This document shows, piece by piece, positions 4,236 through 64,000 of a DNA stretch of 64,000 bases (position 1 is its first letter; every line of letters starts with the position of its first letter). The DNA comes from Saccoglossus kowalevskii. Its lineage: Eukaryota > Hemichordata > Enteropneusta > Harrimaniidae. The notes under the pieces are model-generated. The model searched no databases and was not told the origin of the DNA. It was given only the letters and a program-made list of their open reading frames with translations. A program made the translations under genes and the position numbers. The stretch covers positions 419,948-483,947 of the forward strand of contig NW_003137329.1 of the NCBI RefSeq assembly GCF_000003605.2. Direction: 5' to 3'.

Positions 4236-4503
4236 TATGTATTAAAACAGCCATGAACGCTATGCTGGTATGAAAGCAGCCGACAGCTATTACCGCTACG
4301 GATTATCACATCAGTTTGATAACCGCAACACTGATAATGATCGATCTGTTTATGGCTTTGTGAAATCAAGCCTGACATGCCAGAACGAAAGAGCTCATCT
4401 TTCATGTATCCATGGCAATATTCACATACTTACAGCACAGCACGGTCAAGGATGCGGACACGGTTGGCAACCTGGCTACCCTGAGCACTACAGTTTTTTC
4501 TGA
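4236..4503 (+). pseudogene. Degenerate lectin copy C, truncated
   Basis: The sequence matches the second half of the WSC-like module and the first half of the SUEL domain of the intact gene. The frame is open from 4270 to 4503 and keeps Leu-Thr-Cys, Leu-Ser-Cys and the HGNIHILTAQ strand. The Tyr-Gly-Arg sugar-binding motif is changed to His-Gly-Gln, and the frame stops right after Tyr-Pro-Glu-His. The N-terminal half and the last third of the SUEL domain are absent. There is no exon acceptor or signal-peptide exon of its own. Confidence 0.75.
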
Positions 4504-5357: not shown

Positions 5358-8300
5358 ATGAAAACATTGATTTTCTTATTACTGGCAGTAGTACCTGCAC
5401 TATGTGAGTTGGACGGTAAGTTAACATTGATTTCACACATGTTTTTTAAAACAATGTTTGCATAATCTAATCATTTATTTTCATTCAAGTGAAACTACAA
5501 GTCCTGGACTTAAAGACTTTATTCCAAATACATAGAGTAATTGCAACATTGACAACTTATTTTATTTCCACCACTGACTTATTTATTTATGCTAATGAGC
5601 TGTTAAGTGAATAGTATATTCACCTAACCCATGAAATCACGTGAATCTACCCTGCCAAGAATATTAATGTAATACACATTACCTCTAAATTGAGGTTTCT
5701 TGCGATGGAGCGCTTCCGTGGCCAATCACATCGTCGATAATGTTTTGTTCTTCAAATGTATTTTAAAAATTTGCTATATTTTAAATTAATGATCATATTA
5801 TTAAAATGCATTCACTAATTTACATAAATGTAAGGTCACAAAAGAAAATTGTACAACCACTTAAAAAAAGTATATATTGTTTGAAAACTTAGAGTATGTT
5901 GCGGTCGGATGTTATTACGAAGACTTGGATGACAGGGCGATTCCCATTAGTATTGGTGGACGGCTCCCGAACGACCTCACACCAGAGCAGTCAATTCGCA
6001 AATGTGCCAAGAAGATCCACCGACGGAATGATGCTTTTGAAATATTCGCTTTGAAGGCAAATCGTAAGTGTTTCTCAGGTCTGACTGCAGCCGATACCTA
6101 TGCCAAACATGGGCCATCGAATGACTGTAGTATATCCGCTGATGGTGATCGATCGTCCAGGTCTGTTTTTGCCTTTGTCAAAACCAGTGTAACATGCCAA
6201 CAAGAAATGATGAATCTCACCTGTGACCATGGCAGAATTCAGGTTGTTTCTGCAACCTATGGACGTGGCGATGGGCTGGGTGAGGAATGTGGTGACCAGG
6301 GTGAGGAATCCACCGAGTGTTTCGCAACCGACACCTTAGACATAGTGAAAGATTTATGCAATGGCAAAAAAACATGTACTAAGAACACCGTCATGGCTGT
6401 ATATGGCGACCCCTGCCCTGATGCTCCAAAACATCTCGTTGTTCGTTATTATTGTGAGTATATATTCCGTATATATCAAGGTTGTATTTAAAATGTTAAG
6501 TTATCTCATTATAATAGATGGCATGATGATATGAGCGATGTATAAAATATATTTTTTTTCTTTTTCACTCCATTTTTTTCATTCGTTTCATGTACATTCA
6601 CCGTTTTTAAACTTTAAAAAGTCGTCTTCGCACAGCGTGCGTGCGAAACTTATGATAATAAACAAGTTGTTTACACGCGTTGTATACGTCGATTTCAACC
6701 AATCACTGATTTTATATATTACTTCATTTATACAGGTGGTCAACCCTGGTTTCCAAAATACGGTATGTTTGTCTTTTTTTTGAGAAGGGGAATCTAATGT
6801 GTATAATGTATACAAGGCTGTTATCAGGTGCATTTCAAGTGCAACAGAACAACTGATCTTGTCTCAAAATATTGTCCTATTTCGAAGAGTGTATTTCATT
6901 CTATGGCCATTTGACAATCGATTCGCACAGTTGAACGGACATAAGTGATTTCAAGTTTTTTAGACACACAGCGGTAACTTCTTGATGTGCTGAATACGGC
7001 TTTTGGAGACCTGAATTGTTTGCATTTTATTATTGAAATGTATAGCCACTTAATGTTAATGTAAATATGATATTATATTTGAAAACTATTTTTTTAAATT
7101 CGGTGTGACATTTTGCTTTGCACTCACAAGGATTATTTCCATATAATACTTCTACTGGTTAGTGCTCTGATGAAGACAGTGTGCTGAATATAGGAATAAT
7201 GCCAAAATATCATAATAGTATATTCTAACGTTAGGAAGATATAATGCAGTAGCGGATATCGAATAAATAGCATACATGTTATCGATAGTTCACGTGTAGG
7301 TCATTTTAGGTTTAACCATAAAATATATTTGTATACACTTATCTTAGCTTCTTTTGTGGGGTGTGTCTTTTTCCATTTCACATCCTTTTTCCATTATGGG
7401 TTTTATTGTTCCTTCATCTGATATACCTAATATAATTAGAGGGATGTCGTTGTTGTGATGTAGGATTTAAATATAATATGTGTTTTTGCATTTTTGTTGA
7501 AAACAGTTCACCACATGTTGATAATATTCTCTAATTTATTTAAATTATGCTTACCGCGAATTAGTTTTGCTTGGATGTTACGAAGAGACTGACAGAAATC
7601 AATTGGAAGAGAAGGCTATTCCGAAAATGCTTGGAACCCTCCCTGAATCTGAAGATCCACAAGACCTAACTGATGCATGTGCAAAGAAGGCCGACAAATT
7701 TGAAATTTTTGGTATTAAAAACGCCTATAAATGCTATTCTGGTCTGACAGCAGCCGACACCTATGACCGATACGGATTATCAGATCAGTGTGATAACCCG
7801 GACGCTGATAATGCCCGATCTGTTTATGCCTTCGTGAAATCAAGCCTGACATGCCAGAAGGAAAGAGCTTATCTTTCGTGCAGCCATGGCAAGATTCACA
7901 TACTTACAGCACAGTACGGTCGAGGATACAAGCACGTGTGTGGTTGGCAACCTGGCTACCCTGAGCACTGCAGATTCACTACAAGCACGCTTGATGAGGT
8001 GTCTGAACGATGTGAAGGCAAAAGTGATTGTGAATTCAACACAGTCTTCGCCATATATGGTCTACCATGTCCCTCTGACATCAACAAATACCTTGATATC
8101 AGCTACTATTGTGAGTAGAATAAACTATTTGTATAATTGTGTAACATTCTCTAAAATCAATATAGAAGAAGCTACATTGTAACAATCAACAATAACTCTA
8201 TTTGTTTTAGTGTCACGTGAGCTTTTATTTGACTACTCCTATAGCAACATTTTAAGTTTGAAATAATAATCGCTTCCATGGCTAAAATACTGATTTGTCA

Positions 8301-13428: not shown

Positions 13429-13486
13429 TAAATCGCTGAATCCATTGTTTCGACGTGACGTCACACAACCACGGTTTTCTTCAGAC

Positions 13487-13573
13487 CATGGAAGGTACTA
13501 ACAGGAGACACGACGCCTCTCATGTGGTCACTCAAGCCTCCTAACTGGCTTATTTCCGTTAGTACCTTCCATG
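13487..13573. repeat. Perfect 16-bp inverted repeat (hairpin)
   Basis: CATGGAAGGTACTAAC at 13487-13502 is exactly complementary to GTTAGTACCTTCCATG at 13558-13573, with a 55-bp spacer. No coding or RNA-gene context is visible; it could be a small foldback element. Confidence 0.6.
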
Positions 13574-14235
13574 TTCAGACACTCGCTCTACGATTTTGTT
13601 TACATTTTGTGGAAGTCATTAAGTATTTTTGGCACAAAGTCAAGTTGACCGGTATAATGAATAGAGACAATATTGTTTAATCGAATTAAACCATTGCTGC
13701 TGTACTAGTATTTCATTCATAGTTTTGACATATTTAGACAGGAAATAGTATATACATGGTGTCATGGAAACATACAAAAAACTAAAAACGATGTCATTCA
13801 AAAAGTTAATATTTATATATAATTAAAATGTATACGTCACTCAGAGAAGATTACACATTCGCTATTTTAAGTTCTGCTTGGGTCTGTAAATTAGAAAACA
13901 ATATTACACATCATCGTTCTTTTGTTCGCATTCAGGTCGGGTATTAATTACTTAATCGCCGTATATAATTGCACATTTTATATACCGCAATGTAAATCTA
14001 AATAAACTCAACTTAAATAATGATCGCCATTTCAGAAGGTCGTCTCAGAGCCAGACATTACCCAATAAATAGTACATTACCACAATTGAGTCAGTCCATA
14101 GACCAACGTAATAAAATGCACGATTAGTACGTAATTGGGTGACATGATATTAATGAATTCACAAAAGTGTGCAACAGGTTATACAAAAACTAAGCGACGC
14201 TGCATAGTATTTTCCGGCCCTGCCATATGTTGTTT

Positions 14236-16637: not shown

Positions 16638-19600
16638 TTAGTCAGAATCTTTCTTTTTCTTTTTCTTCTTTTTCTTTTCTGAACTTGGCTGCAATTTAAA
16701 ATAAAATAAATTTTCAGAAAACAAATTGATTCAGGATGTCAGGAAAAGTTACAAGAGAATATTGAATAGAAAGCAAAAAAGAGGAGATGCTCCATCAACA
16801 CGACATTCTACTGGTGCAACACCACATGAGGGGGCTGGCTGCAAATCCACATAGCGGCCCAACAGCCAGTACCTGTCATTTTAAACAGGTATAAAATTTC
16901 ATTTGACAGGCAAAAATTCTACAAATATGTTCTAATTTTGATTGGAAATTACCCATAAAAACATAATCCACAACAAATCTGTGGTTCCAGACTACGGACT
17001 GCCATCTTTCGAGTCAATAAATTATTATGAACAGATGCTACTCTATCTTCTAGCTATAATCCTGCCATATAAGTGTAAAAACAAATGCAATATGGTGGTG
17101 CTATGAAACAAGGACTTAGACTGGACCAGCTGTGAGTTGTCTCAGTGGAGGTAGTGACTGTCAATTATGATATCATCAACATAGGTAACAGTTTAAATTG
17201 ATTCATCATCGACAACATCAGTTTTTGTAGGATTGTACAACTTCTAGTTCTCCAAATTTTGCACATTACATATTTGTAAGTAATTTCTCAAATTTTAGCA
17301 ATGCCACCTTAGTAAAACTATGCTATAAAGGGGAATATATGATTACTTACCGTTTCCACAAGTGATGTTTCTGCTACTGGCGATTCAGCTTCTTTTTGCT
17401 TTTGCTTTTTCTTCTTTTCTTTCTTGCCAGGAGTTTCTTCTGCAAAACAACATTTAACATTAAAACTCAAGTACTTGCAAATACCAGTAAGGTCCCACGT
17501 TAAAACTGAAACCCAACTACAGGGCGAGGGAGAAACTGATGAATATCAGCAATACATAATCTAATTACAAAATATGCAAGTTTCTTGGTAGCCATTTTAT
17601 GTATTATGTGGCACTCCAGATTACGACCAAGCTGCTTACTGCACAACACTATAAAGCAAACTACACACAAGATCTCAGTTTAATGAAGACTTGGTCCAGC
17701 AATAATCCATTATATCTATGGAATTTGATTAAAGAAACCATTTACCAGCTTGTGTAGGAGTTTCAAATTTGACTTTCTTGGCCGGAGTTTCCTCACTTTC
17801 ATCCACATCTTTGTCCTTTTTCTTCTTCTTTTTCTTCTTTGGCGTTTCTTCCACTGCTTCTTCGGAGTCTGATGATGATTCTACTGGTTCTGCTTTGACT
17901 TTCTTCGCTTTGTGTTTAGATGGTGTTTCTCCTGTGGTATCAACCTCTTCTATTTTTCGTTTTTTGGCTTGTATCGTCGAGTCTAAACCGACACTGTAAG
18001 GGGTGACATCACTTTTGCCTTGGTATTTGCCAAATTTGGCCAGCTGTTTTCCAGTACCACTGATTCTCCTCGTCTGTCAGAATACATTTAAAACATTGGA
18101 GTCAATGCAAAACTATTTAAAAAGATTGGCTACATAACCCTAATACCTAACAGTCTAACCAATCAGAGCAGCTTGTTTGTTGGAAAGTTTGATGCATCAA
18201 ATTCACCCTAGTATGTATGTACGTACATACATACGCATATATATACATACATACATGCTTTGACTTGACCGGAACGTTGTCATGGGGATTACCGGTACAT
18301 ATTCCGAGGGGGCAGGAATGAGGCACAGAACCAGCATAAGAGGCAGTTTTGTCATGGTGAATAAATAAATCTGCCGAGCACATGTGACCAAACCAGCATG
18401 TACAAGGCTGAAAACAGTTTCAGCACTGATCATACAAGCTAGCAACCTTCCCACAGTGAGATATGGTTGTGTATAAAATAAAGAACCTAAACAAAATATG
18501 TTTTTCAAATTTTCACTCCAACTTACAGCAAACAGAGTTTTCGTCAATCTACATATTTTATATTGCAATGCAAGACTTTCACATGAATTGTGAAATAATA
18601 TTCATTGGATCCAAAATTAACAGAAATAAACTTACTGCTTGCTGTTCAATGGATCGTAACCTGTTTTCAAGTTTAGCTCTGTTTTCTATTCCCATCTCTG
18701 AGTTGTCATCTTCACCCAAAGCATCATATCGGATAGCGAGTGACGTCTTTGATGCTAACATACGCGACACCTAGACAGGTAGGAATGGAGAAAACAATGC
18801 ACATATTACATTACTTCATCAAAAGGAAATACTGAAATTTTAGTTATTTTATGTAATACAACATAATACAGTTGATAAAAATTAACAAGGAAGGGAGGAG
18901 GAAGGAATATAACACATGCCAGCTAGAATAGCGAGGAGGCTGTAACCACAGACGAGGACGAGGCAAGGGAGATGCTTATTTCGATTCCCACTTTTGAGCT
19001 GTGTTGTCTCAGTGGAGGTAGTGACTCAATTACAATATCATCAACATTAACAGTTTAAATTGATTCATCATCGACAACACAACACAATCATGATTTTAGT
19101 TCTTTTAGTTCAGTTGCAATACATTCAGTTTGTAGAAATCAGGTGATAGATGGTTAAATCAACCACATTCGAATACTGACTAGGACTTTGCTTATAATAT
19201 ATATGTACATGTGCCATTTTTGTGACCACCATTATTTTGATTTTTTTTCCCTCTAACTTGAAAACAAAACTTGCATCGCTACATGTTATAATTAAGCCTG
19301 GACTAGAAAAATGCAGTTTATTTTAGAAAATTAAAAATTGAATACTACTGTAAAAGGACATTTTCTGAAGGAAAGAATTAGTGAAATTAAATTCCAGTGA
19401 AAATACTTTTTTTTATGGTTTACATTCAAAAACTCTGAAAATATACAGAACGACCAAAATGTGTTTTTTTTTCAGTGAAAATTAATTCCAGCTAAAATAA
19501 AGTATTTCACATTTCATTACCACTACTTACTTTTCCTTTGTTTTTTGCCGACGTCTGTCCCACCATTGATGCATGGTAAATAAGACCATATTTAGGCGTA

Positions 19601-22600
19601 TCTTTCTTTGTTTTTAATGCTCTGAACAGCGCCTTCTCAGCTCCCAATATCTGTACAGTGGACGAGGGATGCTTTGCAAGATTAAGTAATGAACCTAAAG
19701 ATAAACATTAACAAATTACATGTCAGGATAACCCTCTTATAACAATCCAATGTTGGTCATTTCTGTAATCATTTATTTTGAAGAGTACTGGTGGGTATGT
19801 TTTACACAAACAAACCCAATAAAAGTAACTGAACGTCAAAGACAAACAAAGCGTTACTCGGGAAGCACCAGTTAACAAATCTAGGCCAATTCAAGTGGCC
19901 AGCTTTAATTCACAATTCTGCAGTTCATTTTTCTGTTACCATTCACAACAGTTATCAGTCCATGGAAAGTACCTAACAAATTTACCAAGTGGGATTAAAC
20001 ACCATTATACTAATGCAGCAAACACACTTGGTACATCACTCCAAACAATAAAGTTACAGGAGGAACGGAAGTTCAAATTGGTAAATTAGTGATACCTCAC
20101 TCCAAACAATTTACAATTAATACACTAAATCAGGCTGACAAAATTTACCTGCATGTGCTATGAGTCTTGCACCGACCAATTCACCAACCATTATTGTCAA
20201 GTTAGGTGCTATGGCAGTCATTCTGTTTTTGAGGTAGTCGTACAGCTGTGCTCTGTAATTGGAAATTTCTATAATCTGAAAGAAAAATTAAATTACTATT
20301 ATTTGATTCATCTTGCTACGACAATTATAGTCTGCCCAATCTTGGTACAGTTGATTTTGAGCAAAAATTTAAATTTAATGAAACAATATGATTTTGAATA
20401 GGACTCTTTGTGACAGGTTACAAAGGTTAGCAATGGTGGTGAGAGTTTAAAGCTCACCTGTTCACTAAGATACAAAATATTAGTGATATCCTCTTCTGAC
20501 ACTTCAGTGCCCATGGAAATTTCAGCCGCCTGTTTGACTTGTTCTTCTATTTCTTCTGGTAACATTTCTGAGAGGTCAGTACTGGAAGTATTCACACGGT
20601 CACCTAAAAATTATTATGTTAAAAGTTAGCCATCTGAAACTCGTTTTATGCCATCTGAATATCTCATAAATCGGTACAATTACCTAATACTGCTAACACC
20701 AGGATGACAGAACACATCAGAACAATTTGTATACATGTAAAGCAAAACATGTCATTTTGGTGCGCCCTCTGGTGGTACTAATTGAAATATCTTTTGTTTT
20801 AAAATAACTACATCTAGAAAAAAACTTAGATCTATAACGGAGCTTCGTATCCGAATTGCATTTTGTATGATACATTTCAACTCACCAATTTTCTTGATAG
20901 TTTTGGCAAAAGCTATGTTGTCAGTGACAATTTTCCCTAACTCTGGGAAGTGCCATCCATACCATTCACGAACCCTCATTATGTAATTATTCAATTCTTT
21001 ATCTAGATCATCCAATAGAGCTGTGAAAACAAAAGTATAATTCATTATTTGAAAAAATTCATGCTATAAACTGGAAACTTTTACAGTTATAGTTGAGTAA
21101 TGATTTTCATGTCCTATTTGTAATTTTTTTGAAAGGGTGGTGGTTATCAAAAATACATACATACAAAAAATTCAAACGCGCGACGTGACGACCACCACTC
21201 TTACCAGTAAATCAATAATACAATCTGGTTAAAAAAAATATATTTATGCCAGAGGTAGCTTGTAAGCATGGTCTGCCCTCATGTTGACAATATCTAGTCA
21301 GAGAAAAACTGTCTGAACACAACTTCCGAAATAATTTGGTCAGACATAGTTACACCAGCAGCTGTATATTAAAGAAAGCAGAGCCTTCATTGATTTTAAT
21401 CAGATTGCTCCAAGACCAGCTGCAAATTTTGACCTTTTCCCTCTTAGAAGCAACTATTACATGAATTAGATTGTCTCAGACGTTGATATTAATCTCATCA
21501 GAGGCATCAGACGAGAGGTGTAAGGTTTGTCATCACAGACTTCATGACAGCCTAACTAACATCAGAACACTGCTCATTTACTGCTTAATACATCCAGTTC
21601 ATAGCAACTACAGATAGCAAAACCTTGAAATACAATACAGTACTTACAGATTGCCTGCACAATCATGGTGTCCACTTTATCTGGACTGAACTTCAACTTG
21701 TACCTTGATAAACTATTGAAAGAAAAAGATGGCACTGAGCATGTATAAACCAATTTTCATTAATAATTTTCTATGACCAAAATTAGTAACAACTCGTCTT
21801 GGAAACACAAAATGCATCTCAAAACAAGACAGCAACACTTACCTATGTGCCAAACCCAAGGAGAAAGCACTGATTTCTTTCTCTGGTAACCCAGTTATCA
21901 AATTTGTCATCTGTGCTCGTATACCTCTCATCAGTTCGTGTATTGATGAGTTGCAAACACAACTAATGTTGAATTTTTCCTATTAACAAATAAAACAAAA
22001 TTGTATTAAAGAATTAAAATATTTTTTTTGCTTGATGAAGTTCATTATCAATGACAAGCTAGACATAAAATGCTGTATTTGCTCTATTAGCAGCACCATA
22101 ATTACAAATTATGATTAAAATAAATAATATTTGAATGATTCAGAATACTGTAGAATACTTTATTTTCGCTTGGAATTTATTTTTGCTATTTTCACTGAGG
22201 AAATAATTCTGTGAAAATAAAACCCAGTGAAAATACTTTTTCTCCTATATTTCACATTAAACTCATCAAATAACAGTAAAAATAAATTCCATACAAAATG
22301 CCCAAAAAGCCTTTTCAGCGAAAATAAAGTATTCCACAGTATAACAATTCCAATTTTGATTTATTGAATACATGCTTCTAATAAAGCAATTATGGTAGCA
22401 ATATTTATTTTTACTTAATGTATTTTATTATTATACATCTGTCACCGTAACGCCATACGTTACAGCGTGTCAATTTGGCGGTATTGCATTGGGTATTTTA
22501 ATCCTACCATATTGGGAAACGAAAATTCCAAATACGAAAGGATTTTGCGCATAAGCGTCTTTTAAGATTAAAAAAATAGTGCCCCCAGGGTTTGATCAAA

Positions 22601-25539
22601 CTCAAAACAATGAAGTTCGTTAAATCTGTTATAAACATTTTAGATATATTCCTGGAAGGAAAAGATGTATAATAAGGTTATTACGAGGATACTGCAAAGT
22701 ATGCACTCAAGACAGTACGCGGTCGCATCAACCTCCGCTGCGTGTCTGTCGATACTCCCACTGTACTGTCTTCATGCATACTTTGCATTATCTTCGTAAT
22801 AACCTCATATTATTTGATTTATATTCTTCAGAAATAAATTCCAAGTGATATTAAAGTCATTTACAACATTCCATTCATTCACTTGTTCTAATTACTGTTT
22901 TACCGATGCGACAGACCTACCTTAATAACATTTCCTAATTTAGCATCAGCCACTGCTAGTTCTGCATGTGCATCCTTGGCAACTATTTTTTTCAACATTT
23001 TCTTCAAACTCTTACTCATTTTACCCTCAATGGTTGCAGTGGCAGCTGTAGATAAAAGAACAGTTTCACCAACTTTAGATCATAATTAAGTACTTAAATC
23101 TGAATCACGACATGACACATTTTGTGTAAAAGTATCCAGATAGGAAAATACATGTTTTATTATACACTATGTATTACCAAGTAATACCACAACGAACCAT
23201 TCGTGTGTTTCTATGTCGTGTATTTTTGTCCAAATACATCATAATCAACTATTTTGTTGCCTTTGTTCATAATTATTTTTTAACATCCAGGATAATCCTC
23301 AAAGTATCCATTTGATATCACACCAAGTAAACGTTTGACAAACTCTAAACAAGCCTGCAGTGCTACTAATGCCATATAACGCTACATGCAGTAACAAACT
23401 ACAAATTGTCTATTAGAATTATGGCGCTGGAACCACATTTCTGATCACAATGGTCGCTTGTCAGCCATTTTGAATTAGATCCTTAGAACAAAATATTGCG
23501 CAGCATGGGTCCCACATTTGTGTACTAAATCTGATGATACATTGAACGCATGTTAAAATTGGTGGTATGTTTTTGTTCCTAGCAATACCCCTACATAGCA
23601 TTGATAACATGTACTCTAAGTCTACAATCTATTACATTGTCTCAGACATCAAGATTGTTCTCATCAGAGTCATCAGACGAGAGGTGTAAGGTTTGTCATC
23701 ACAGACAGGTAACATGACTGCCACCCCAACCCAGAAAACAAAAACAACTGCATGTCGGCTAATTTGAGCCAGATTACTGAATCAAATGACAAGCGATGTT
23801 GTATGCAAGTACCATATATGTACACAATTTTATATGTTGCTACCTACCAGCAAGTGCATCTGTGGTGTCTTTGAATTTTTCAAACTGTTTCAACTTGACA
23901 CTGAAATAAAATTGAATGATAAGTAATTCTCAGGATTAATTGTAAATAGCACTTATCCTTAAAATTGATATTATCTTCTAATCGAGTGAATTCAACAGTC
24001 TGGGAGACAAATCTAAGTCACGAAGTAGAGAACCTCTCGATACAGTGGGGTCAAACCAACATCAAACTAATAATGGGAGTCTCCGACACATTTAATGTAA
24101 ATAGAAAATCACGATGCAATTGGCTTAATTACTTCATTCAATCATACAACTTGCTAAATAACAAATGGCAAAGTTATCCAAACAATTAAATAGTCTGAAA
24201 TGTCAGGACACAGATGCTGATGTTAGTGATAATGCTCATAAATGAACACACTGGAAAAAATGGTTCGAACAAACCAGTTCTAATCATGTCAGAGACGAGC
24301 CCTGCGTACAGTGCTGTGTGTACGGGGACGCGTTCGGTTGATAGATGTCCCCCCACAGCCCTGCGTACCCCCCATAATAATAATAAGTTAATAATAAGTA
24401 GTTTCCCAGTCGAAATCTGTTGAAATGACGATAGTTATCCGTAACAACCATTACAAAGTTATCTGAAACTGAAATGTCTTTAAAAAACGACTAGTAAAGA
24501 CGGACAAATAGTAAACGTGTAGGTACTTGAGGAATTATTCACTAAACTCTGCCATTTTTAATTTCATTCACGTGATAGAATGCGTTTGTTTTTAGGGCAA
24601 AGTAGCCGATTTCATCCACAACCGGNNNNNNNNNNNNNNNNNNNNNNNNNNNNNNNNNNNNNNNNNNNNNNNNNNNNNNNNNNNNNNNNNNNNNNNNNNN
24701 NNNNNNNNNNNNNNNNNNNNNNNNNNNNNNNNNNNNNNNNNNNNNNNNNNNNNNNNNNNNNNNNNNNNNNNNNNNNNNNNNNNNNNNNNNNNNNNNNNNN
24801 NNNNNNNNNNNNNNNNNNNNNNNNNNNCATTAAAAAAGTTATATTTTCAAAATCCCGGACCGTACGCAGGGCTGTGGTGGGGATATCTATCAACCGAACG
24901 CGTCCCCGTACACACAGCACTGTTCGCAGGGCTAGTCAGAGACGCGCATAGCAAACCAGTCAACTGGCTGCCAATATTGCCGTTTTGGTGTTCCAAGCAG
25001 TTTAAGGAGTAGTCAGAACATGATGAACTTACACTTTACTTGCTCCTTCAGCAGTCTGGAAATCTTGATATAAATTATCAACTTTCTTTAACTTCTTTTC
25101 ATCAAGAAGCTGCAAAAAAAAAGAAAAAAAAGAAGATGAAAACACGTGTATTCCCCGGGGTGTATTCCATATCAAGATCAAGGTCATTGCAATTTTGGTA
25201 GGCTTGCAAAACAGTACACAAGCCGGACGACTACATGTTGCGTTACGCATGTCAGCGACCTGTCAATGTATCAAAAACAAAAGCAAAATGAAGTTTTATT
25301 TCACACGTGGTGGAATTATACGATAAACGATTACGATCGCTCAAAGATACAAGATGGCGCAGCGCAGTGTCCCATGCGTGTCACACGTTGGACGACCATT
25401 CCGTTCAGTTAAACAGGTAACAACTCTCATAACAACCATGAAAGTAACTTCAAATCACATTTACAGATTGGCAGAACTAAAATGAAAACCATACCTTGAA
25501 AATGGCATAACCAGCCGCGGTTTCAAACAAGACCAACAT
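16638..25539 (-). CDS. NOP58: Nucleolar protein 58, box C/D snoRNP core protein, 14 exons, 558 aa
   Basis: Exons in transcript order: 25495-25539, 25033-25109, 23848-23900, 22921-23045, 21843-21979, 21648-21712, 20886-21020, 20458-20603, 20149-20275, 19531-19694, 18636-18770, 17746-18073, 17351-17439, 16638-16688 (1677 nt, frame kept throughout, GT/AG at all junctions). The N-terminus [15 protein letters not shown] is diagnostic of NOP58 rather than NOP56. The NOP N-terminal domain is followed by the coiled-coil ([15 protein letters not shown], then [12 protein letters not shown]) and the NOP domain that holds the snoRNA and 15.5K ([47 protein letters not shown]). The tail is disordered with Lys-rich (KKE/D-type) blocks and ends KKKKKDSD. 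Human NOP58 is 529 aa; the extra length is in this tail. The protein acts in the nucleolus with fibrillarin, NOP56 and 15.5K to guide rRNA 2'-O-methylation. Its introns carry four C/D snoRNA candidates and a gap-containing DNA element in intron 2. Confidence 0.96.
17136..17216 (-). ncRNA. Box C/D snoRNA candidate A1 (NOP58 intron 13)
   Basis: On the minus strand a 6-bp terminal stem (GTTGTC with GACAAC) encloses box C GATGATGA (17203-17210), a C'-like GATGATA (about 17172-17178) and box D CTGA (17142-17145). The 12 nt GTCACTACCTCC, one base before box D, is antisense to the universally conserved 18S rRNA segment GGAGGUAGUGAC. By the D+5 rule it would methylate the G just after the A of GGAGG. 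It is in sense orientation within a NOP58 intron, the usual mode for animal snoRNAs, and has a close paralogue at 19001-19080. Confidence 0.75.
18101..18178 (-). repeat. Dispersed CCAAT-palindrome repeat, copy 2
   Basis: Read on the minus strand it matches the copies at 10785 and 58864 (CTGATTGGTTAGACTGTTAG, then GTAGCCAATC, then GCATTGACTCC). It sits in NOP58 intron 11. Confidence 0.6.
18212..18256. repeat. TATG/CATA microsatellite tract
   Basis: An imperfect run of TATG, TACG and CATA tetranucleotides lies within NOP58 intron 11. Confidence 0.7.
19001..19080 (-). ncRNA. Box C/D snoRNA candidate A2 (NOP58 intron 10)
   Basis: A perfect 8-bp terminal stem (GTGTTGTC with GACAACAC) closes the RNA. 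Inside are box C GATGATGA (about 19065-19072), C'-like GATGATA and box D CTGA (19009-19012). The same GTCACTACCTCC guide precedes box D as in A1, and the box C-to-D' segment (AATCAATTTAAACTGTTA) is also shared. Between the two copies the changes are concentrated in the C'/D' linker. This conservation of boxes, stem and guide while the surrounding introns differ supports a functional RNA. Confidence 0.78.
19345..19510. mobile_element. Partial TA-MITE relative of 22148-22339
   Basis: It shares CCAGTGAAAATAC, TTTTTCAGTGAAAAT and AATAAAGTATTTCACA with the family, but the left terminus is not preserved. It lies in NOP58 intron 10. Confidence 0.45.
21473..21540 (-). ncRNA. Box C/D snoRNA candidate B1 (NOP58 intron 6)
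   Basis: The minus strand shows box C TGTGATGA (21530-21537), D' CTGA (21507-21510), C' TGATGA (21495-21500) and D CTGA (21476-21479), with canonical spacing. The terminal stem is short (GTC with GAC). The D' guide AACCTTACACCTCTCGT is identical in copy B2 at 23638, while the D guide (ATTAATATCAACGT) differs between the copies. I could not match the D' guide to rRNA or snRNA from memory. Confidence 0.72.
22148..22339. mobile_element. TA-flanked MITE (CTGTAGAATACTTTATTTT family), copy 1
   Basis: The termini are CTGTAGAATACTTTATTTTC and an inverted GAAAATAAAGTATTCCACAG, flanked by TA on both sides. The same family occurs inverted at 60162-60369 with matching interior (GCCCAAAAAGCC against GGCTTTTTGGGC). 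It lies in NOP58 intron 4 and has no coding capacity. Confidence 0.75.
22671..22811. mobile_element. Foldback element with ~48-bp arms
   Basis: The arm 22671-22718 is nearly complementary to 22763-22811 (shared AGGTTATTACGA, GCAAAGTATGCA and AGACAGTAC). The ~44-bp loop contains its own GCGG/CCGC pairing. It lies in NOP58 intron 4 and is non-autonomous. Confidence 0.7.
23638..23707 (-). ncRNA. Box C/D snoRNA candidate B2 (NOP58 intron 3)
   Basis: The minus strand has a TGTC/GACA terminal stem, box C TGTGATGA (23696-23703), D' CTGA (23673-23676), C' TGATGA (23661-23666) and D CTGA (23642-23645). The D' guide AACCTTACACCTCTCGT is shared exactly with B1; the D guide AACAATCTTGATGT is different. 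All four boxes match consensus, which is unusual by chance. Confidence 0.75.
24298..24934. mobile_element. Mutator-like (MULE-type) element with ~72-bp TIRs, gap inside
   Basis: The left terminus AGCCCTGCGTACAGTGCTGT is repeated inverted at the right end (about 24862-24934) over ~72 bp, including GGGGACGCGTTCGGTTGATAG. GTCAGAGACG is duplicated directly outside the two ends (24288-24297 and 24935-24944), a 9-10-bp target-site duplication as in Mutator-type transposons. The centre is an assembly gap (N at 24626-24827), so coding capacity is unknown. It is inserted in NOP58 intron 2. The class is inferred from TSD and TIR length only. Confidence 0.75.
24626..24827. other. Assembly gap (202 N)
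   Basis: A run of N inside the TIR element. Open frames across it are artefacts. Confidence 0.99.
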
Positions 25540-25867
25540 TTTAAATGTTTTCAACCACGAGGGCAAGCTTTCATCTACGCATGCGCACAGTCATTTTACC
25601 CAAGGTGCCTTGCAAGCAGCAAGGTCATAGGTTATTGAAAGTCAGCTGAAGGTCACGTGTTTTATATACGCCAGCAGACGAGTGCAGTGAGCAGCAGAAT
25701 AAATACCTTCCGTGCTCATTCTCTGGCCACACTCAACGGTTACCTCTTTATCCTGTTGCCGTTACAATTCCCCAGCTAGGCTGAGAAAAGTTGCATTTTG
25801 AAAAAAAAAAAAAAATCTGCCAGAGCTAAACAAATTAATTACTTTCTTCGAGAAGGAAACTGTTACC
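25540..25867. promoter_or_regulatory. Shared divergent promoter of NOP58 and JMJD4
   Basis: The two start codons face away from each other with ~340 bp between them. The interval holds CGCATGCGCA near 25578 (NRF-1-like), a CACGTG E-box at 25654-25659 (MYC/USF type, fitting a ribosome-biogenesis gene) and TATATA at 25663-25668. The transcription starts themselves cannot be read from the sequence. Confidence 0.55.
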
Positions 25868-25912
25868 ATGACAACGTTTGATGAAGATGGATGCAGCAAA
25901 CTTGACTCATGA
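25868..25912 (+). other. Overlapping upstream ORF at JMJD4 start
   Basis: ATG at 25868 in a good context (ACC before, A after) opens a 14-codon frame ending TGA at 25910-25912. It overlaps the JMJD4 starts at 25881 and 25887 in another frame and could lower JMJD4 translation or favour the stronger ATG at 25887. It matters only if transcription begins upstream of 25868. Confidence 0.4.
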
Positions 25913-28900
25913 CACTTTTCTGAAATCGTCGGATATTGATGTGAACGACGTTCGCAAAAGTCAAGTATCGGCCATCGACGTTATCACTGAAGAACTTCAC
26001 TACAGCCAGTTTTTTGTGAAGTACATGCTACCAAATCAGCCATGTTTATTTGGTTCACAGGTAACCTCTTGTTGGAAAAGTGTTAAAGATTGGGTTACGG
26101 AAGAGGGGAGACCAAATTTTAAGTTTCTGCAAGACCGTTTTGGTGAGTAATTTTGTGTATTGCAGAGCAGTAATGGGTGCTTTCTACACTCCCAAGTCTT
26201 TTGTTTGTGTACTGGTCCGGGAGCTGGAAAGACTCACTAGTATTGTGTTAAATTACAGCTGTGTACACCGGTATGGGATAGAACACTAACGTTGTCAAAC
26301 ACCTGTGATCCATTCCCTCGTTATGACCAAACGTGTACATTTAAATGGGATATATTTTTTTTTTATTGTCGACCAATAATATTTGCCTGCCCACAAACAA
26401 AAAATGCATGACTTCCAATTATATTTTAGAATATGTACAGTGAGAGATTTATAAACTGTTGTTTATTTTGTTTGCCAGGCAGAGCTGTGGTGCCAGTTGC
26501 TAACTGTGCTGGCAAACATTATGATTCTCAACCCAAAGAAGATATGTTATTCACAGATTATATAAAATATTGGAAAGATTACATTGATAGTGATTATTCA
26601 ACTGATAGGAAATGTCTCTACCTCAAGGACTGGCACTTTAACAGGTAATATTTACTCCAATTCTGTTGGAAGTAACCAGTATAATTAAACTTATCTTGAA
26701 GTTTGAAAAGTAAGAAATGTTACTTCATGGATAGTCAGAATGAATGAATAAAAAACAGCAGCAGAGTCAGCAGACGATAAGTAAACAAATACATTTTCAC
26801 TGAAACTACCAAAAATGGAGCCTTCATGTTTTTCTAATTTCTAACGGTCTTTTAAGAAAATGAAATATAGAAAAGGAGAAAACTACCAACTGATTGCAAT
26901 GTTGGCTCATGTTGTGATTGTGACCCCATGATACATCAAAAGTTCAATCTGTGTGCATGGACCAATCAGATTACTGGGATTAAATCTTATAGTATGGAGA
27001 TATTGAAATTATTACTTATTACGCTGCTATTATACATGGGTAAAAAGTATTTACAGTCAAACCTGTGTTAGCAACCACATCCATATAAAGACCACCTGCC
27101 TATAGTGACCACCTTTTCAGCACTACCCAGTATTTTTACTAATTCACCGTTAAGATACCAAATACCACCATAGTAATAATAAGCATTCCATTTATTACTC
27201 AATTTTGAATTTTCTGAATCAAACTTGTTCGACTTTGATCAAATGAATGTTTTTTTTTTTTGTCATAGTAACACTCCATTATTTTGTGGACAAATATATC
27301 AAATGTATGAGTTGGTGATGAATAAAAAAAATAACTAATCCTCCATATAAAGACCATTTTGGTAAGGTTTTGTGGGTGGTTACTACTCATAGGTTTCACA
27401 GTCTATTATCAATTATTCATCATAAATTTAATTTTGTTTTAAATTTTCAACTCAGGGAGTATCCGGGATATACTGCATACAAGACTCCAGTGTATTTCCT
27501 GTCGGATTGGTTGAATGAATTCTGGGAAAGTAGAGAAGACCAAATAGATGATTACAAATTTGTCTACATGGGACCCAAAGGATCATGGTAAACTTGATTG
27601 CTATACTGGAATTTAAGCTGAATCTGGGTTTACCGATACTCTTGCCATTTCCTTCAAAATATATGTATGGTTATATAAGGACTATGAATGCTTTCACTAA
27701 ACTCAAAATAAGTAGAAAGAGGGTTTAGAACAATCATACCCACTCACTACAATATTCCATGTTATACATGAAATTGAACGTAAGAACAGGACAAACAAAG
27801 GTTATTTCCCCATGGTGACGTTAAATGAAACATTGTATAGGATTCAATAAATGGGAAAGTATTTTCAAAGTATTTCCATACCTAATAATGTGTTCTACAC
27901 GTTTGATAATGGTCAATTTAATGAGATAAAGATATCCATATTCCTCTCTGAAACATTGGCATTTCAACATTAAACTATAAATTCAAATTTGGAATCAAAT
28001 CATTTGAATTTTGTGGCAAACATTTGTTGCACAGACCAATTTATAGTCAACATTTAACCAACTTTCTTGTGTGAGCTTTGTGGATGAAGTGGGGGAAAAT
28101 GTTTGGAATGAGCATGGATCTCAGGAAATATTCATGACTACCGGTAAATTAAGTTACCGATGTGTGTCAACCTAACATGCAGTTTCATCTAGGGCTCGTA
28201 TAGTGCTTGTCTGTGCGATGAGATTCAAGTTTTCAATACAATTTCAGTAAATTAGCTGCAATTTTTTTGTATTTATTGATCAATAGCAAGACATGTCCAT
28301 GTAACTGCATTTTTGCAAGATGGCTATCAAATTTGCTGCCTAATTTGCAAAACAGCTAACTGACATCCAAGCAATGAAAATACAGAAGTATGGCCAACTA
28401 ATACAACTTACCGTACTATCTAAACAACTTGGGGTATGCCATGTATTTGTAGGAATTCATCCCACCCTTCACCTTGGACTCAACAATAATATTGCTTCAA
28501 TGTTTATATTAACTAAACAGAAGTACCGGTAAGAAAAAATGTACAGAAATTTTGAGTTGAAAGAGTAAATTACTTTGACAATAAATCTGGCGAAAAGTAA
28601 TTCTCATATTCTCATACAGTTGCATCTTCTAACCCTATGCTATGAATGGTATGCCCCAGTTTGGATCAACAAAACATTCCCTCATTCTAGCATATACAAA
28701 TTGCAAATAAAATTGTGGAGCACAGGTATCTAATTGACACGCATTATAACAAAAAAACAAAACCTATTCTCCATAATGTTCGTTTCGATAGGACGCCATT
28801 CCATGCTGACGTATTCAGGTCATACAGCTGGTCTGCCAATGTCTGTGGGAGGAAAAAGTGGCTTTTATTTCCCCCTGGGCAAGAACAGAATCTTAAAGAT

Positions 28901-31662
28901 GTCCATGGCAACCTGGCTTATGATGTCACTTCCCCTGAGATGCATGATGGGACAAAGTACCCAAATTATGATAAAGTGTCAGGGATGCTAGAGGTAATAC
29001 AGGAAGCTGGTGAAGTCATCTTTGTACCAAGTGGATGGTATCATCAAGTTATTAATATGGTGGGTACTGCTGAGTTATGTACTCTTCTGTATTTACTGAA
29101 TGTATTAACAGTTTTTACTCTGTATAGACTTTGCCCAATGACCCATGGGGCAATCTACAACATGGTATGCAGGGAAAATCCATGTTGTATGACTGCATGC
29201 TCATAGAAAACAAAAATGTGCTCATCACAGTCCCTCTATAGATGTCAGTAATAAATGGACAGTTACTAATCAACTCTATATCAGGATTAGTAACGTAAGT
29301 TTCCTTCACTGTAACTGCCATTTCAAACACAAAATCCCAGTCATAATGTTGTCATCATCAAAATCTATAAAGTCACTGCATACTTTCCGTGGCATGGTTT
29401 CAATGTTTTGGATATAAAGAAATCACGAACGATGCACTAAGCATGCATTCAAAGTGAGGCACTTTGCATTCTGGGCATATTAACATGGCTGCAATTCGTC
29501 TCTAGAGGTGTGGATTGTTTATTTACCCGTGACGAGACTGTTTTAAAGAAATACATTCTGTTTCCAGACAGGTCTATAGAGGGACTGTGTTCTCGTAGAT
29601 AATCTGTTAAGTATCAGGTACCATGCCACCTCCATTTCATAAGTGCATGGGAAAACATGGGAATGAACGGAAATTGGCATGATAGTTTTCAGTCGGGAAA
29701 GGCATGAATAATAATAATAATAAATAGTTTTTTTGTTTTGTTTTTTTAAATGACTATAATTCAAGGGCTAATACACAACTATATAACTCACCCATCTTGT
29801 GTACACCATTGTTTTGTCAAATACTGAGTTGAATAAACTTATATAATTGGCAATCATTTTAGAAAACTCGCATAGCTGTTCAAAACATACTCTTCTCAGC
29901 AACTTTTAGACAGGAATTGCACTTAAATTTGTTCTTACTGGTATTAAAACTAATATAATAAAATAATAAAGTACTCCATGACAAGCTGCACTGAGCACTA
30001 TTGGTAGACTGACCCAGTCGTGGCAATTTTGTAATATTATTTTCTTGTAATTCATGATCTAATGTGAAATTACTATGAAAAGTAGGCGTGCACAAGGAAT
30101 TCCATTCATCTGGATCATGTATGCGTTTTAGTTGTTGCATGGAACAGGTATTATCAAAAGCTGTCTTTTCATTGGTTGGTAGGTTACAAGTCATGCTACT
30201 CATTAGCATATTTATCACCTCAAAAATGCAGTGACAAACTCCAGTGAGCATGGCAAAACCGACCAGTCATGAAAATATTTTGTCAATGCGAGAGATTCTA
30301 CAAATTTCCTCTTAACGAAATTATCATATTATTGCCACAACTGGACCTGTCTACAACATCTTATGCAATATGACAAATTATTGCATAATTATCTCATCTA
30401 TTTTCATTTAGGATGACACCATTTCTATCAACCATAACTGGATCAATGGCTGCAATGTTGATATTTGCTGGGACTTTATCCAGAGTGAGTTGAAGTCTGT
30501 AGAGGACGCCATTGCAGACTGTCGTGATATGGACGGATGGCATAAACAGTGCCAGGTAAGTACTGTAAAACAATTTATTTTCACTGACATTTAATTTCAC
30601 TAATTTGATCATATTTTTTGGCTTTTAAGTTCACGAATAGTTAGTGCCTTTACAGCATGTTGGTGATCAGATGGTTTTCAAACTTCTGTCTTGTTTTGCT
30701 GACAAAGGTTTACAAAAATGCATTCAACTACTTGTATGACAAAAGGAAATCATGATTTAGCAAATGAAATATGGTTCAAATTACATTTTAAATTTGTTTG
30801 TTTGATGCAATGAAACTTGATGCACAGGTGCTGTGGGGTACTTCAAATAGTTTACAATTGAAACATGCATATTAATTACCTAATTTGCATAGATATGTGA
30901 TTGACAGTCATTTTGAAGCCTCAGTTGGATTTCTCATCAACTTTTAGACGAAATTGTATTTTAGTCCCAAATAGTAAAAATTAAAATCACATTCTACAAA
31001 TACTCATGATTGCATTCAATAGAAAAAAAAGTACTCCATGCATTCTGATTATCAAAGAGATATTTAAATTTGTAGAGTGCTGACACATCGCCATGGAGTT
31101 TGATTTCCATTTTGAAATGGTCGTCATCTATCTTTCTATACTCTCAGAAAAATCTATGAGAAATTGAACATAGCAAAGAACTGTACTGAATTTGCTCTCT
31201 TAGTAGCACATACACTTACGTAAACAACAGAAACTTTTTTATTGTCAAAATAAGTAATATTTTAATGATTCAGTATACAACAAAATAAATGTTTGTTTTT
31301 ATACACTTTTATTCCTGATGCACTAATAAAGCAAATATGGTATTTGATTGTTTTTTTCTTAGTTAATTCTAAAAGCAAACAGTGGAATGGATTATACAGA
31401 TCTATTTACATTTCTTCATACTATTGCTAAGCAACGGATGAAGAACCTGAATACTGTCATGGCAACCAATGAAGAATTTGAGCATGTAAACTTTAATTAT
31501 CATGATGTGTTTGATTTAAACAAAATTCTGAATCTTTTAAAGCATATTTTAAAAAATAAGGATTTTTCAGAAATCGATTATGGAACTCTTCATGTTAACC
31601 CTAAAGACTTTGTTGCCAGTTTAAATCATTTTTTACATAATGAACTTACAAGTTATCTTTGA
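25881..31662 (+). CDS. JMJD4: JmjC-domain protein 4, 2-oxoglutarate/Fe(II) lysyl hydroxylase, 6 exons, ~423 aa
   Basis: Exons: 25881-26142, 26479-26644, 27456-27587, 28792-29059, 30412-30555, 31363-31662 (1272 nt, all GT/AG, frame kept). ATG 25881 has a weak context; ATG 25887 (AAG before, G after) is a good alternative two codons later. The order of blocks matches JMJD4: SQFFVKYMLPNQPC, VVPVANCAG, CLYLKDWHF, PVYFLSDWLNEFW, then the JmjC core PFHADVFRSYSWSANVCGRK. The core has the His-x-Asp iron ligands, WLLFPPGQE, the distal His in VPSGWYHQV, and DDTISINHNWINGCN. JMJD4 is known to hydroxylate a lysine of release factor eRF1 and to aid translation termination. Length is close to the human protein. 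It is head to head with NOP58 and convergent with ALS2. A 364-bp inverted-repeat element lies in intron 4. Confidence 0.95.
29226..29589. mobile_element. MITE-like element with perfect 17-bp TIR (JMJD4 intron 4)
   Basis: CACAGTCCCTCTATAGA (29226-29242) recurs exactly inverted at 29573-29589. No clear target-site duplication and no coding frame are visible. Confidence 0.55.
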
Positions 31663-45300: not shown

Positions 45301-48300
45301 AAGCTCCCTATATCAATATTTACAAGTTTCTGTTGTGACAATGATCAGTGAATTAGAATAACGAGACACAGCAAAAATCTATGATATATAAAGCATTCTA
45401 GCTGAAAGCAGAATGTGGATTTTTTTAATAGTTACAAAATAAAATGATCAGCTAATTTATACTGAAGCTAATATTTCTTGACTTCACCTCAACGAACCAA
45501 ACAAAGATTATCAGTAAGATCAATGAAAATCAAAACTGTTACACAACTTGTACTTGTAAAATAAATCACCACACAATACCTGTTAGCCAACTGTCCTCGC
45601 TTTCCAGCACTCAAAGCCACAGCAACTGCTTCCCATGCTTTATGAGGACTTGGTACTATTTTATCATGACAGCCCAGCGTACTCTTACAGTGAGTAAAGA
45701 TCTCTTCCCATTTGTTTTCCGCCTCCACAACGTACTGACCACTGGTACTGAAGCATGAGCATGCAAAGTAAGAATAAATTAAATAATTACACTTAGATTT
45801 GTATTGACTGATTACTACATAATTTCATTCCTCTATATATACAAAAAATCTGAATGTAAAAAAATATTTAATCATTTCAAAAATATCCAAGGATTAGCAT
45901 CCCCCATCATTATCTCTTGATTATAAAACAGTCAATGTTATTGGTCAAAAGCAGTCACATGATTATTTAATATTAGCTTCTCCCAGCATTTAATATTGGC
46001 TTCTTGTCTCTCGTGTCAATTTGCATGTAGTGGCCTGTTGTCATAACATTTGGGAAACTTTTTTTTTTTAAATTGTTTGTGCAAGGAGGCAGTTGGCGAC
46101 ATTGAATGTCACTGTTGTCTTTCCTGACTTTTTTTATATGCAAATTACAAGTGCTAGTGCTGACACATAGGCATTTCCCTCATCAAATGGCAATTTTAAT
46201 GCACTATCCTGGGGTCAACCAGGCTAGGTCAAACACAAGTACCTTAACCAAGGTTCACCCAAAGTCGCATTCATTTAAATAGTGAATGAATCTCGGCCAG
46301 TGGACACTTAACAAGATGGATATGTGCATTTCCACTAAGGGACTAATTTTGATTTCAACTCAGCAAGTTTGTATCTTGGCTCACAGTTTTACCTTGCTTA
46401 CAATATACTAGTATATAATTATAGCCTTGCTGTTCTGTTTCTGAATATTAAACAGTTATTGTCTTTGGCTTCAAGCAAAATCTCGAATTATTGTTCTCAG
46501 ATGAGGCCAATAACTTTAGAATATTTTTGGCTGCACTAGAAATAAGGCAGCTTACACAGATGAGTATTATTGGTAAACAGAGGAGGTAAAAAGAACTGCT
46601 GCTGTTGAATATATACTTACACACGTGCAGAGTCAGGTGTCTCAAGTGGTGCCTTATTAAAATTACCGTTCACTTTAATTCCATCTCCCCATAAACCAGT
46701 GAATGTACCCTCAATAAAGTCACCATTAGGAAGACGCAGCACACCCTGTTATATAAAAGTAAGGCTGTGTTAAAACAAGTGAGACCACGAGACGTGTTAA
46801 CGATGACAACAACGACAACTATTACATACTCCCTCTATTTTAATACAGGTGAGGCAATAATATTCTAAGATGGATGGCATGATTTGCAATATAAACAATT
46901 TCACTTGATAAAACTAACTTCCCCATCCAAACTCAATCCTTTTGTTCTTGTGGAATGATTCGTCAATTGTTGTCAGTCATTTGTTTTGTGTTCTTGGACT
47001 TGTACATTTTCCTATGTAATTTTTGTTTTAAAATCTATGGTTGGTTATGTTATTTCCACTTTGGCATATAACCCTATCATATATTTGGTTTTCTACTTTC
47101 AATCAGTGCTCAAACAACCAGTTACTACATAATTATACACAGCTACTGTTACACATGTATTTGAGTGTGAATACCTTTCCATTCAGGGTTGGACCAGTTG
47201 CCAATTCTCCTTCATAACAAGTACCATCTTCCGTCACAAGCAAACCAACACCCTGCAGAAAAGTATGAACATTTTGAAGAAATTATAATCCATGTATAGA
47301 ATTAGACTAACAATATAATAAAACTGCTTTTAACCAGTTTTTCCCACACTGAAAAAACTGTAGATAATCTCCAATCATTATTTGGCACTGAAATTCGTCT
47401 GAATGCTATGATAAATTTAGTTGTTGTTACATCTGACCCAACAAGTAGAAATAGCAATGGAGTTAAGAAGTAATATTCGACACGCAGTGCTTGTTTGAAT
47501 TTTTATGTAAATAAACAATGCATTTTACACACAATGTATACCTCGCTATGAGTCCCATATCGAACATGGCGTCACAACCATCGCCCTTAAATATTATTTG
47601 GATATTATGAATATCACAGTGCTAATATGGGACTTTATAAGATTATTATTATATACAATACATGGAAAAATATGATGTCACCACTTACAGAAAGTTTGTT
47701 GTGCATGAATGTCCCTTCATAATACACTCCATCCAACGTTACTACCAGTGCATTGCCATGACGATAGTCATCCTGCCACATTCCCATGTATTTTTCACCT
47801 CTATTGATGTCATCCATAACACCGTAACCATAGCGTTTGTCGTTGACCCATTCACCGATATAAACACTAGGTGCAGAGGAGGTCAGACTGCCGCATCGTA
47901 GCATACCGTGTCCATGACGCTGGTTCTCCTTGAAATAACCTTCATAGATATCACCATTGTGATATCTGTAACAATAATATAAATAATACTGCGATAATGA
48001 CAGTGATATATTCAGTCCACACTTAATGACACAGTGGTTATCGATCTCATATGCTTTTTAAGATGATCTAAGCGACCTTGAGTAAAATAAAGAGGCTGAA
48101 TAAGAGAACTGACAATGTAAATTGAGAAAGACTGGGAAAAGTATAACCAATACACAATCATGAATAAAAAAATTCTGAGTGAGAGAACACTTGGAAAGAC
48201 AAAAATGATGTAATTATGCAATCAAGGCGAAAAATGTTGTCATGGTTCCATTCAACTACTAATATGTAGCAAGGTACCTAAAGAAGTGTTTTGAAATAAG

Positions 48301-63279: not shown

Positions 63280-64000
63280 CTGAGAATATAACAAGGATAG
63301 ATAATCAAGGGTCTGTACCTTCCATCATAATGTATTTCATATAGTACTAATATTACGCATTTATATCAAACACTCACTCATGTGTACACTACTGTACAAA
63401 AGCCATCTCCAACACAAAGGGATGAACAAAAATCCACAAAGTAAGATATCCTATTATACATAGCTTGCTGAAACTCCTTTAGAGAAAAGTTATCAGCAAT
63501 CTATGTGTACCTATGGTGGCTTCAGTCGTCAATGTGTTAAACCGATGTACAGTAATCACTTAAGGTAGAGATGCAGGTTCATGGGCACTTGGGAGTGAAA
63601 TTTTTTTTTTTTTTGCTTTTTATTATCCAAAAAGTCTTGGCTATAGACTGTTGAAATTTTGTAGAATTGTGAATAGTGGAACATACTCAAAACCGATTTT
63701 AAAATATAGATAACAGGTGCAAACATTCTCTCTTTTGAATGCTTAGCAAGATGTAGCAAGGCTGTACATAAATAATAAAAAAGAAAACATGGTGAAGAAA
63801 AGAAATGACGGGATCTCCATATTATGCACTGTATTTAACTTTTTACAAAACGGTAATACATTTAAATTTGAAACTGTAACAGCCATTTTAATTATGAGCA
63901 TTAGGAAACTTCTTACTGAGTGAATTGTTATGCAAATTAGCAATAATCTCAGCTTCTTTTTAGTGCACATTCTAGAACTTTAAAAAAAATAGCGCCTAGA
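63280..64000. other. ALS2 intron to right edge, no exon recognised
   Basis: AT-rich; the next upstream ALS2 exon must begin in phase 1 and lies outside the window or was not recognised. Confidence 0.5.

Follow-up and report, generated by a model that had tools for sequence, protein, structure and literature searches.

Paired C/D-box snoRNAs in two introns of NOP58 in the hemichordate Saccoglossus kowalevskii, predicted to guide methylation of 18S rRNA at the G509 site

Two introns of the NOP58 gene of Saccoglossus kowalevskii each contain a C/D-box snoRNA. In this report, we describe this pair, termed A1 and A2, in a stretch of contig NW_003137329.1 that is 64,000 nt long and is called the window throughout. 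That the two RNAs act as methylation guides, irrespective of their ancestry, is very probable. The explanation that we favor goes further, and we hold it as probable with real room for doubt: A1 and A2 represent one intronic C/D snoRNA of the SNORD11/SNORD70 group in duplicate, guide modification of 18S G509, and descend from an ancestral snoRNA in an intron of NOP58 that also gave rise to vertebrate SNORD11 and SNORD70. Vertebrate NOP58 introns host SNORD11, SNORD11B, SNORD70 and SNORD70B. A1 and A2 are new candidate guides in a host gene already known for such snoRNAs, and the arrangement, which vertebrates are thought to share, is mostly ordinary and well preserved. The pair would be a guide to 18S G509, carried in NOP58 introns, that the Rfam models for SNORD11B and SNORD70 narrowly miss.

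Host gene and anatomy of the pair

The coding part of NOP58 occupies positions 16638..25539 on the minus strand and was modeled as 14 exons, with 13 GT-AG introns and a single 558-aa frame. The exons are E1-E5 at 25539-25495, 25109-25033, 23900-23848, 23045-22921 and 21979-21843; E6-E10 at 21712-21648, 21020-20886, 20603-20458, 20275-20149 and 19694-19531; and E11-E14 at 18770-18636, 18073-17746, 17439-17351 and 16688-16638. This is a predicted gene model; the exons were picked with the human protein as a guide and then checked by a search of the PDB. The rebuilt protein matches human NOP58 (PDB 7mq8_SB) at E 3.4e-214 and human NOP56 at 8.3e-98. A protein search of the organism's own genome (572 Mb, 4830 contigs) gave nine matches, of which seven are exons of the NOP58 locus and two lie on contig C4474, where the best PDB match identifies the gene as NOP56.

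An earlier note on this DNA had proposed paired C/D snoRNAs in NOP58 introns. The boxes and stems were indeed found, and they fall in introns 10 and 13 of the rebuilt gene. Intron 10 (18771..19530, minus strand; 760 nt, phase 0) hosts A2, and intron 13, the last (16689..17350, minus strand; 662 nt, phase 0), hosts A1. A2 spans 18997..19084 on the minus strand and has a closing stem like that of SNORD70. In order along the RNA, it comprises box C (ATGATGA, 19065..19071), a D'-like box (CTGT, one change from CTGA; 19050..19053), box C' (TGATGA, 19038..19043), the guide element GTCACTACCTCC (19014..19025), whose C at 19017 occupies the fifth position ahead of box D, and box D itself (CTGA, 19009..19012). 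A1, at 17135..17217 on the same strand, repeats this plan: box C (ATGATGA, 17203..17209), a D'-like CTGT (17188..17191), box C' (TGATGA, 17173..17178), the same guide element (17147..17158, with the C at 17150 in the fifth position from box D) and box D (CTGA, 17142..17145). Both thus display the hallmarks of the C/D class, namely box C of the form RUGAUGA, box D of the form CUGA near the ends, and a terminal closing stem.

Closing stems of 6 and 8 bp had been claimed. The first figure stands, as A1 pairs GTTGTC (17211-17216) with GACAAC (17136..17141). The second requires correction: in A2, the 5' arm TGTGTTGTC (19073-19081) and the 3' arm GACAACACA (19000..19008) form nine contiguous Watson-Crick pairs, and if G-U pairs are allowed the stem has 11 pairs, 10 of them Watson-Crick. 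A2 starts 446 nt past the 5' splice site of its intron, with 226 nt left between its end and the 3' splice site; the corresponding distances for A1 are 133 and 446 nt. Intronic snoRNAs of mammals usually lie closer to the 3' splice site than this, a point that speaks against the favored explanation. We would guess that the long external stem of A2 may stem from its unusual distance to that site.

The pair stands out from the surrounding sequence. When both strands were scanned under strict C/D rules (RTGATGA, followed 34-106 nt later by the start of CTGA, with a stem of at least 5 and spacers of at most 1), two matches came up in the window, A1 and A2. When the window was shuffled by dinucleotides (n=200, N removed), the same scan gave a mean of 0.04 matches and a maximum of 1. 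A laxer scan (one change in TGATGA, stem of at least 5) found no third snoRNA in the assembled bases of the 13 NOP58 introns, of which intron 2 has an N run at 24626-24827. A1 and A2 are identical at 81 of 90 positions (90%), and the likeness starts and stops at the snoRNA limits; the next best match between introns 10 and 13 has an E of 0.21, and the flanks share only short chance matches. Such confinement of the identity to the snoRNA fits selection on the RNA. The element GTCACTACCTCC occurs twice in the 64 kb, each time ending one base before box D. Further, the 17 bases past box C, ATCAATTTAAACTGTTA, are identical in A1 (17186-17202) and A2 (19048-19064) on the minus strand; this stretch may be a D' guide, or it may be the mark of recent copying or gene conversion.

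These observations bear on the possibility that A1, A2 or both are snoRNA pseudogenes in decay, or resemble snoRNAs by chance. The imperfect D' box (CTGT) and scores below the Rfam cut-offs (see below) could be read in that way. Against this, each copy retains boxes C, C' and D and a paired stem, and the guide is the same in both, while the surrounding introns are unlike, and chance would supply such a structure in very few shuffled windows. We therefore consider decay or coincidence highly improbable.

No further copy of the pair was found in the genome. A DNA search of the 572 Mb with the core of A2 as query returned the A1 and A2 loci only. The pattern TGATGN{35,65}GTCACTACCN{0,4}CTGA matched three times in the same genome, at A1, A2 and C2922:487780-487838. 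The last of these was considered as a third copy and is taken as chance, because a reversed-pattern control also matched three times, simple arithmetic predicts 2.6 matches, and that locus matches none of the Rfam families at E up to 1.

Predicted target in 18S rRNA

The earlier note had also described the guide as antisense to 18S rRNA. Of this claim, the 12-nt element at box D, placed in the register of SNORD11B, was borne out; the antisense match to 18S stays a prediction. The base that had been named as the likely site of methylation, the G that directly follows the A of GGAGG in GGAGGUAGUGAC, is the one that the +5 rule would select. In the Rfam consensus of SNORD11B, the fifth base before box D is likewise the C found there in A1 and A2. 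In a passage of PMC11128715, SNORD11B is given as the guide for 18S G509. By its register with SNORD11B, the predicted target of A1 and A2 is thus likely the G509-equivalent of 18S. A published primer for the 18S V4 region of piroplasms, as quoted in a section of PMC3724155, includes GGAGGTAGTGAC, and the presence of this sequence inside such a primer speaks for its wide conservation.

By comparison, the consensus of SNORD70 is without three bases, CUC, at the junction of guide and box D; by the +5 rule, its fifth base would then pair 3 nt further 3', at A512. A1 and A2 have three extra bases before box D relative to that consensus and do not have the A512 register. The portion of PMC5612246 that concerns these RNAs describes overlapping sites for snoRD11, snoRD56 and snoRD70, and overlapping guides for G509, A512 and C517. 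The shifted register fits the A512 listed there, and from it we infer a probable one-to-one tie of SNORD70 to A512. A table row of PMC11542601 gives Am468 three times along with Am512, and the passage around it has no row for G509. A guide in the SNORD70 register with GTCACTACC intact was not found in the organism's own genome by the pattern given above, which changed or shorter guides would escape.

We infer that A1 and A2 are expressed, processed, assembled and active in methylation, and that they share descent with vertebrate SNORD11/SNORD70. Splicing of the NOP58 pre-mRNA would release the two introns as lariats, to be debranched and then trimmed to a closed C/D core, comprising the kink-turn and the closing stem. 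SNU13, NOP58, NOP56 and fibrillarin would bind this core. Base pairing of the 12 nt upstream of box D with 18S GGAGGUAGUGAC would then place one G, which is G509 in human numbering, across from the fifth base counted from that box, for 2'-O-methylation by fibrillarin.

Related patterns were also sought in two other sequence sets. An 18S pattern occurs in neither viral_contigs nor genome_contigs. The pattern for a G509-type snoRNA has no match in viral_contigs and three in genome_contigs, in records titled bacterial MAGs; these three equal the 3.0 expected by simple arithmetic and are taken as chance. A SNORD70-type pattern matched once in viral_contigs, and 19 stretches of that set fit a pattern for the NOP58 protein, none of which encodes a relative by tblastn.

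Relation to SNORD11 and SNORD70

A search with snoscan or Infernal had been suggested as a check on the two introns. The Rfam models of SNORD70 and SNORD11B did match, below the cut-off, and in the whole 64 kb no family reached its gathering cut-off. Against SNORD11B (RF01192), A1 scores 38.8 bits, with this as its best family, and A2 scores 36.4; against SNORD70 (RF00575), A2 scores 46.9 bits, again its best family, and A1 scores 28.6. The gathering cut-off is 50 in both cases. The score list names one family per clan, the best, and has no entry for RF01182 itself. Other weak matches in the window were set aside: one to sn2991 at 26689-26782 (29.4 of 60 bits), one to sau-19 at 13476-13575, and several to miRNA families at 18189-18268, which is a simple ATAC/GTAT repeat.

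A1 and A2 combine a SNORD70-like closing stem with the SNORD11 register. With SNORD11 and SNORD11B (RF01182, RF01192) they share NOP58 as host, the vertebrate side being general background, the guide GUCACUACCUC, the register and the predicted target 18S G509. They differ from SNORD11B in that the closing stem of its consensus is not the GUUGUC of A1 and A2, and the interiors are not recognisably alike. With SNORD70 they share the same host, on the same background, the consensus closing stem GUUGUC/GACAAC and CACUGAGAC around box D. The difference here is the absence of CUC between guide and box D in SNORD70, and hence its A512 in place of G509. A read-coverage case in part of PMC4682413 names Nop58, Snord70, RF00575.2 and Snord11/RF01182.1 together.

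How much of this likeness reflects descent was assessed with shuffled controls. When the interior was shuffled with boxes and guide held, the observed SNORD70 score was reached in 472 of 1000 cases for A2 and 663 of 1000 for A1; for SNORD11B, the counts were 129 and 220. Shuffling the stem as pairs gave far fewer such cases, 12 (A2) and 11 (A1) per 1000 against SNORD70 and 34 and 88 against SNORD11B. With interior and stem both shuffled, the score was reached 46 (A2) and 37 (A1) times per 1000 against SNORD70, and 25 and 60 times against SNORD11B. Consensus sequences of two other C/D snoRNAs did better on the interior than those of SNORD70 and SNORD11B (snoR53Y, 1 and 125 per 1000 for A2 and A1; snoZ266, 8 and 27), which makes such scores poor evidence of descent. 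Given this mixed outcome, the argument for descent rests on the host gene, the guide and the stem, not on the interior. Orthology with vertebrate SNORD11/SNORD70 is likely but unproven, the interior being no closer to either family than shuffled sequence is.

Genome-wide, the SNORD70 model ranks A2 first in the organism's own 572 Mb, at E 7.4e-4, among the 60 of 191,606 first-look candidates that were scored; within those 60, the scores then fall to 28.9 bits elsewhere and 28.6 bits for A1. The same model finds matches at E up to 10 in 9 of 14 microbial control genomes, none of them over the cut-off. In view of these controls, only the SNORD70 score of A2 carries weight.

The chief alternative is that A1 and A2 are real G509-guiding C/D snoRNAs that arose from an unrelated or migrant guide, which settled in NOP58 independently of the vertebrate snoRNA. 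The interior that resembles the families no better than its shuffles, and the scores below the Rfam cut-offs, are what this alternative would predict. Further, in the part of PMC3511168 that treats the question, snoRNAs in equivalent introns across eukaryotes are reported to be non-orthologous and independently gained. Several features are harder to reconcile with it. The host gene is common to both lineages, on the background given above; the SNORD11B register is found together with the GUUGUC stem of SNORD70, a stem whose shuffles seldom reach the SNORD70 score; and the best SNORD70 match scored among those 60 candidates sits in NOP58. We regard an independent origin as unlikely.

We return to the favored explanation, descent from an ancestral NOP58-intron snoRNA, and to what it would mean. 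The source just cited describes, in the passages concerned, snoRNA host genes in general as standing out by broad expression and snoRNAs as mobile between hosts (PMC3511168). If orthology holds, an invertebrate host would make the tie between these snoRNAs and NOP58 older than the vertebrates, which would run against the picture of mobile snoRNAs and exchangeable hosts. Among the matches listed in a literature search, as judged from titles and the starts of abstracts, we recognised no NOP58-hosted snoRNA outside vertebrates, which is no proof of absence.

The combination of features raises the tentative and rather doubtful possibility that the pair keeps the state before the vertebrate families split: a single NOP58-intron snoRNA with the stem of SNORD70 and the register of SNORD11, in one copy of which a loss of CUC moved the target from G509 to A512. 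If this were so, one ancestral gene would have given rise to two vertebrate guides for two nearby bases, and that gene would have resided inside the gene of its own core protein since before the vertebrates. The comparison also suggests how gaining or losing a few bases next to box D can retarget a guide by three positions.

NOP56, regulation in cis and gene neighborhood

The earlier note had suggested matched supply of a core protein and its client RNAs, which is conceivable. As one of the C/D core proteins, NOP58 would also bind the introns of its own transcript; the snoRNAs could be mainly cis sensors of the level of C/D core proteins, controlling the splicing of NOP58. SNORD86, which resides in NOP56 and acts in cis autoregulation, is a precedent (PMC11028025, PMC10324135, in the passages that deal with it), and it resembles A1 and A2 in being a C/D snoRNA within the gene of a C/D core protein. 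The likeness ends there. SNORD86 is described, in parts of the respective sources, as an orphan (PMC11028025) with changed boxes C and C' (PMC10234308), and as switching its structure; in A1 and A2 both of these boxes are intact and a 12-nt guide is present. We regard a primary role in sensing as very improbable.

SNORD56 is hosted by NOP56, the sister gene of NOP58. Its site, 18S C517, overlaps that of A1 and A2 on the same 18S stretch (PMC5612246, same passage as above), and it differs from them in guide and target. In the organism's own NOP56, on contig C4474, the exons lie at about 10.6-12.4 kb and are followed by N up to 24.0 kb. The 23,001 bases examined there, which cover the assembled 5' part of the gene with the rest as N, gave no hit to an Rfam family with an E of 1 or less, and a scan of this 5' part for C/D candidates with a 4-bp stem likewise gave none.

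The surroundings of NOP58 in the window include several other genes. Upstream, some 340 nt separate the NOP58 start on the minus strand from the first ATG in a plus-strand open frame at 25872-26147 (region 25539-25881). This frame has the look of the beginning of a JmjC/Cupin_8 gene, with the JmjC domain at 28691-29203; joining the two is a guess, as is the name JMJD4 for that gene. NOP58 and the JmjC gene form a head-to-head pair, possibly with one two-way promoter. An ALS2-like gene lies at 47638-63304 on the minus strand, with a MORN repeat match at 47638-48057 and a DH_ALS2 match at 63023-63304 that, at 27.7 bits, is below the cut-off of 31.2. On human chromosome 2, too, ALS2 and NOP58 are close to each other, and the proximity here hints at an old gene order.

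Two plus-strand frames at 5865-8115 carry SUEL/rhamnose-binding lectin domains, one of them with a WSC match below the cut-off, and the frame at 4246-4500 looks similar to these lectin frames by eye. At 53377-55332, a 24-nt unit is repeated in tandem (81.5 copies, 88% matches), with long open frames on both strands, which a unit whose length is a multiple of three can yield.
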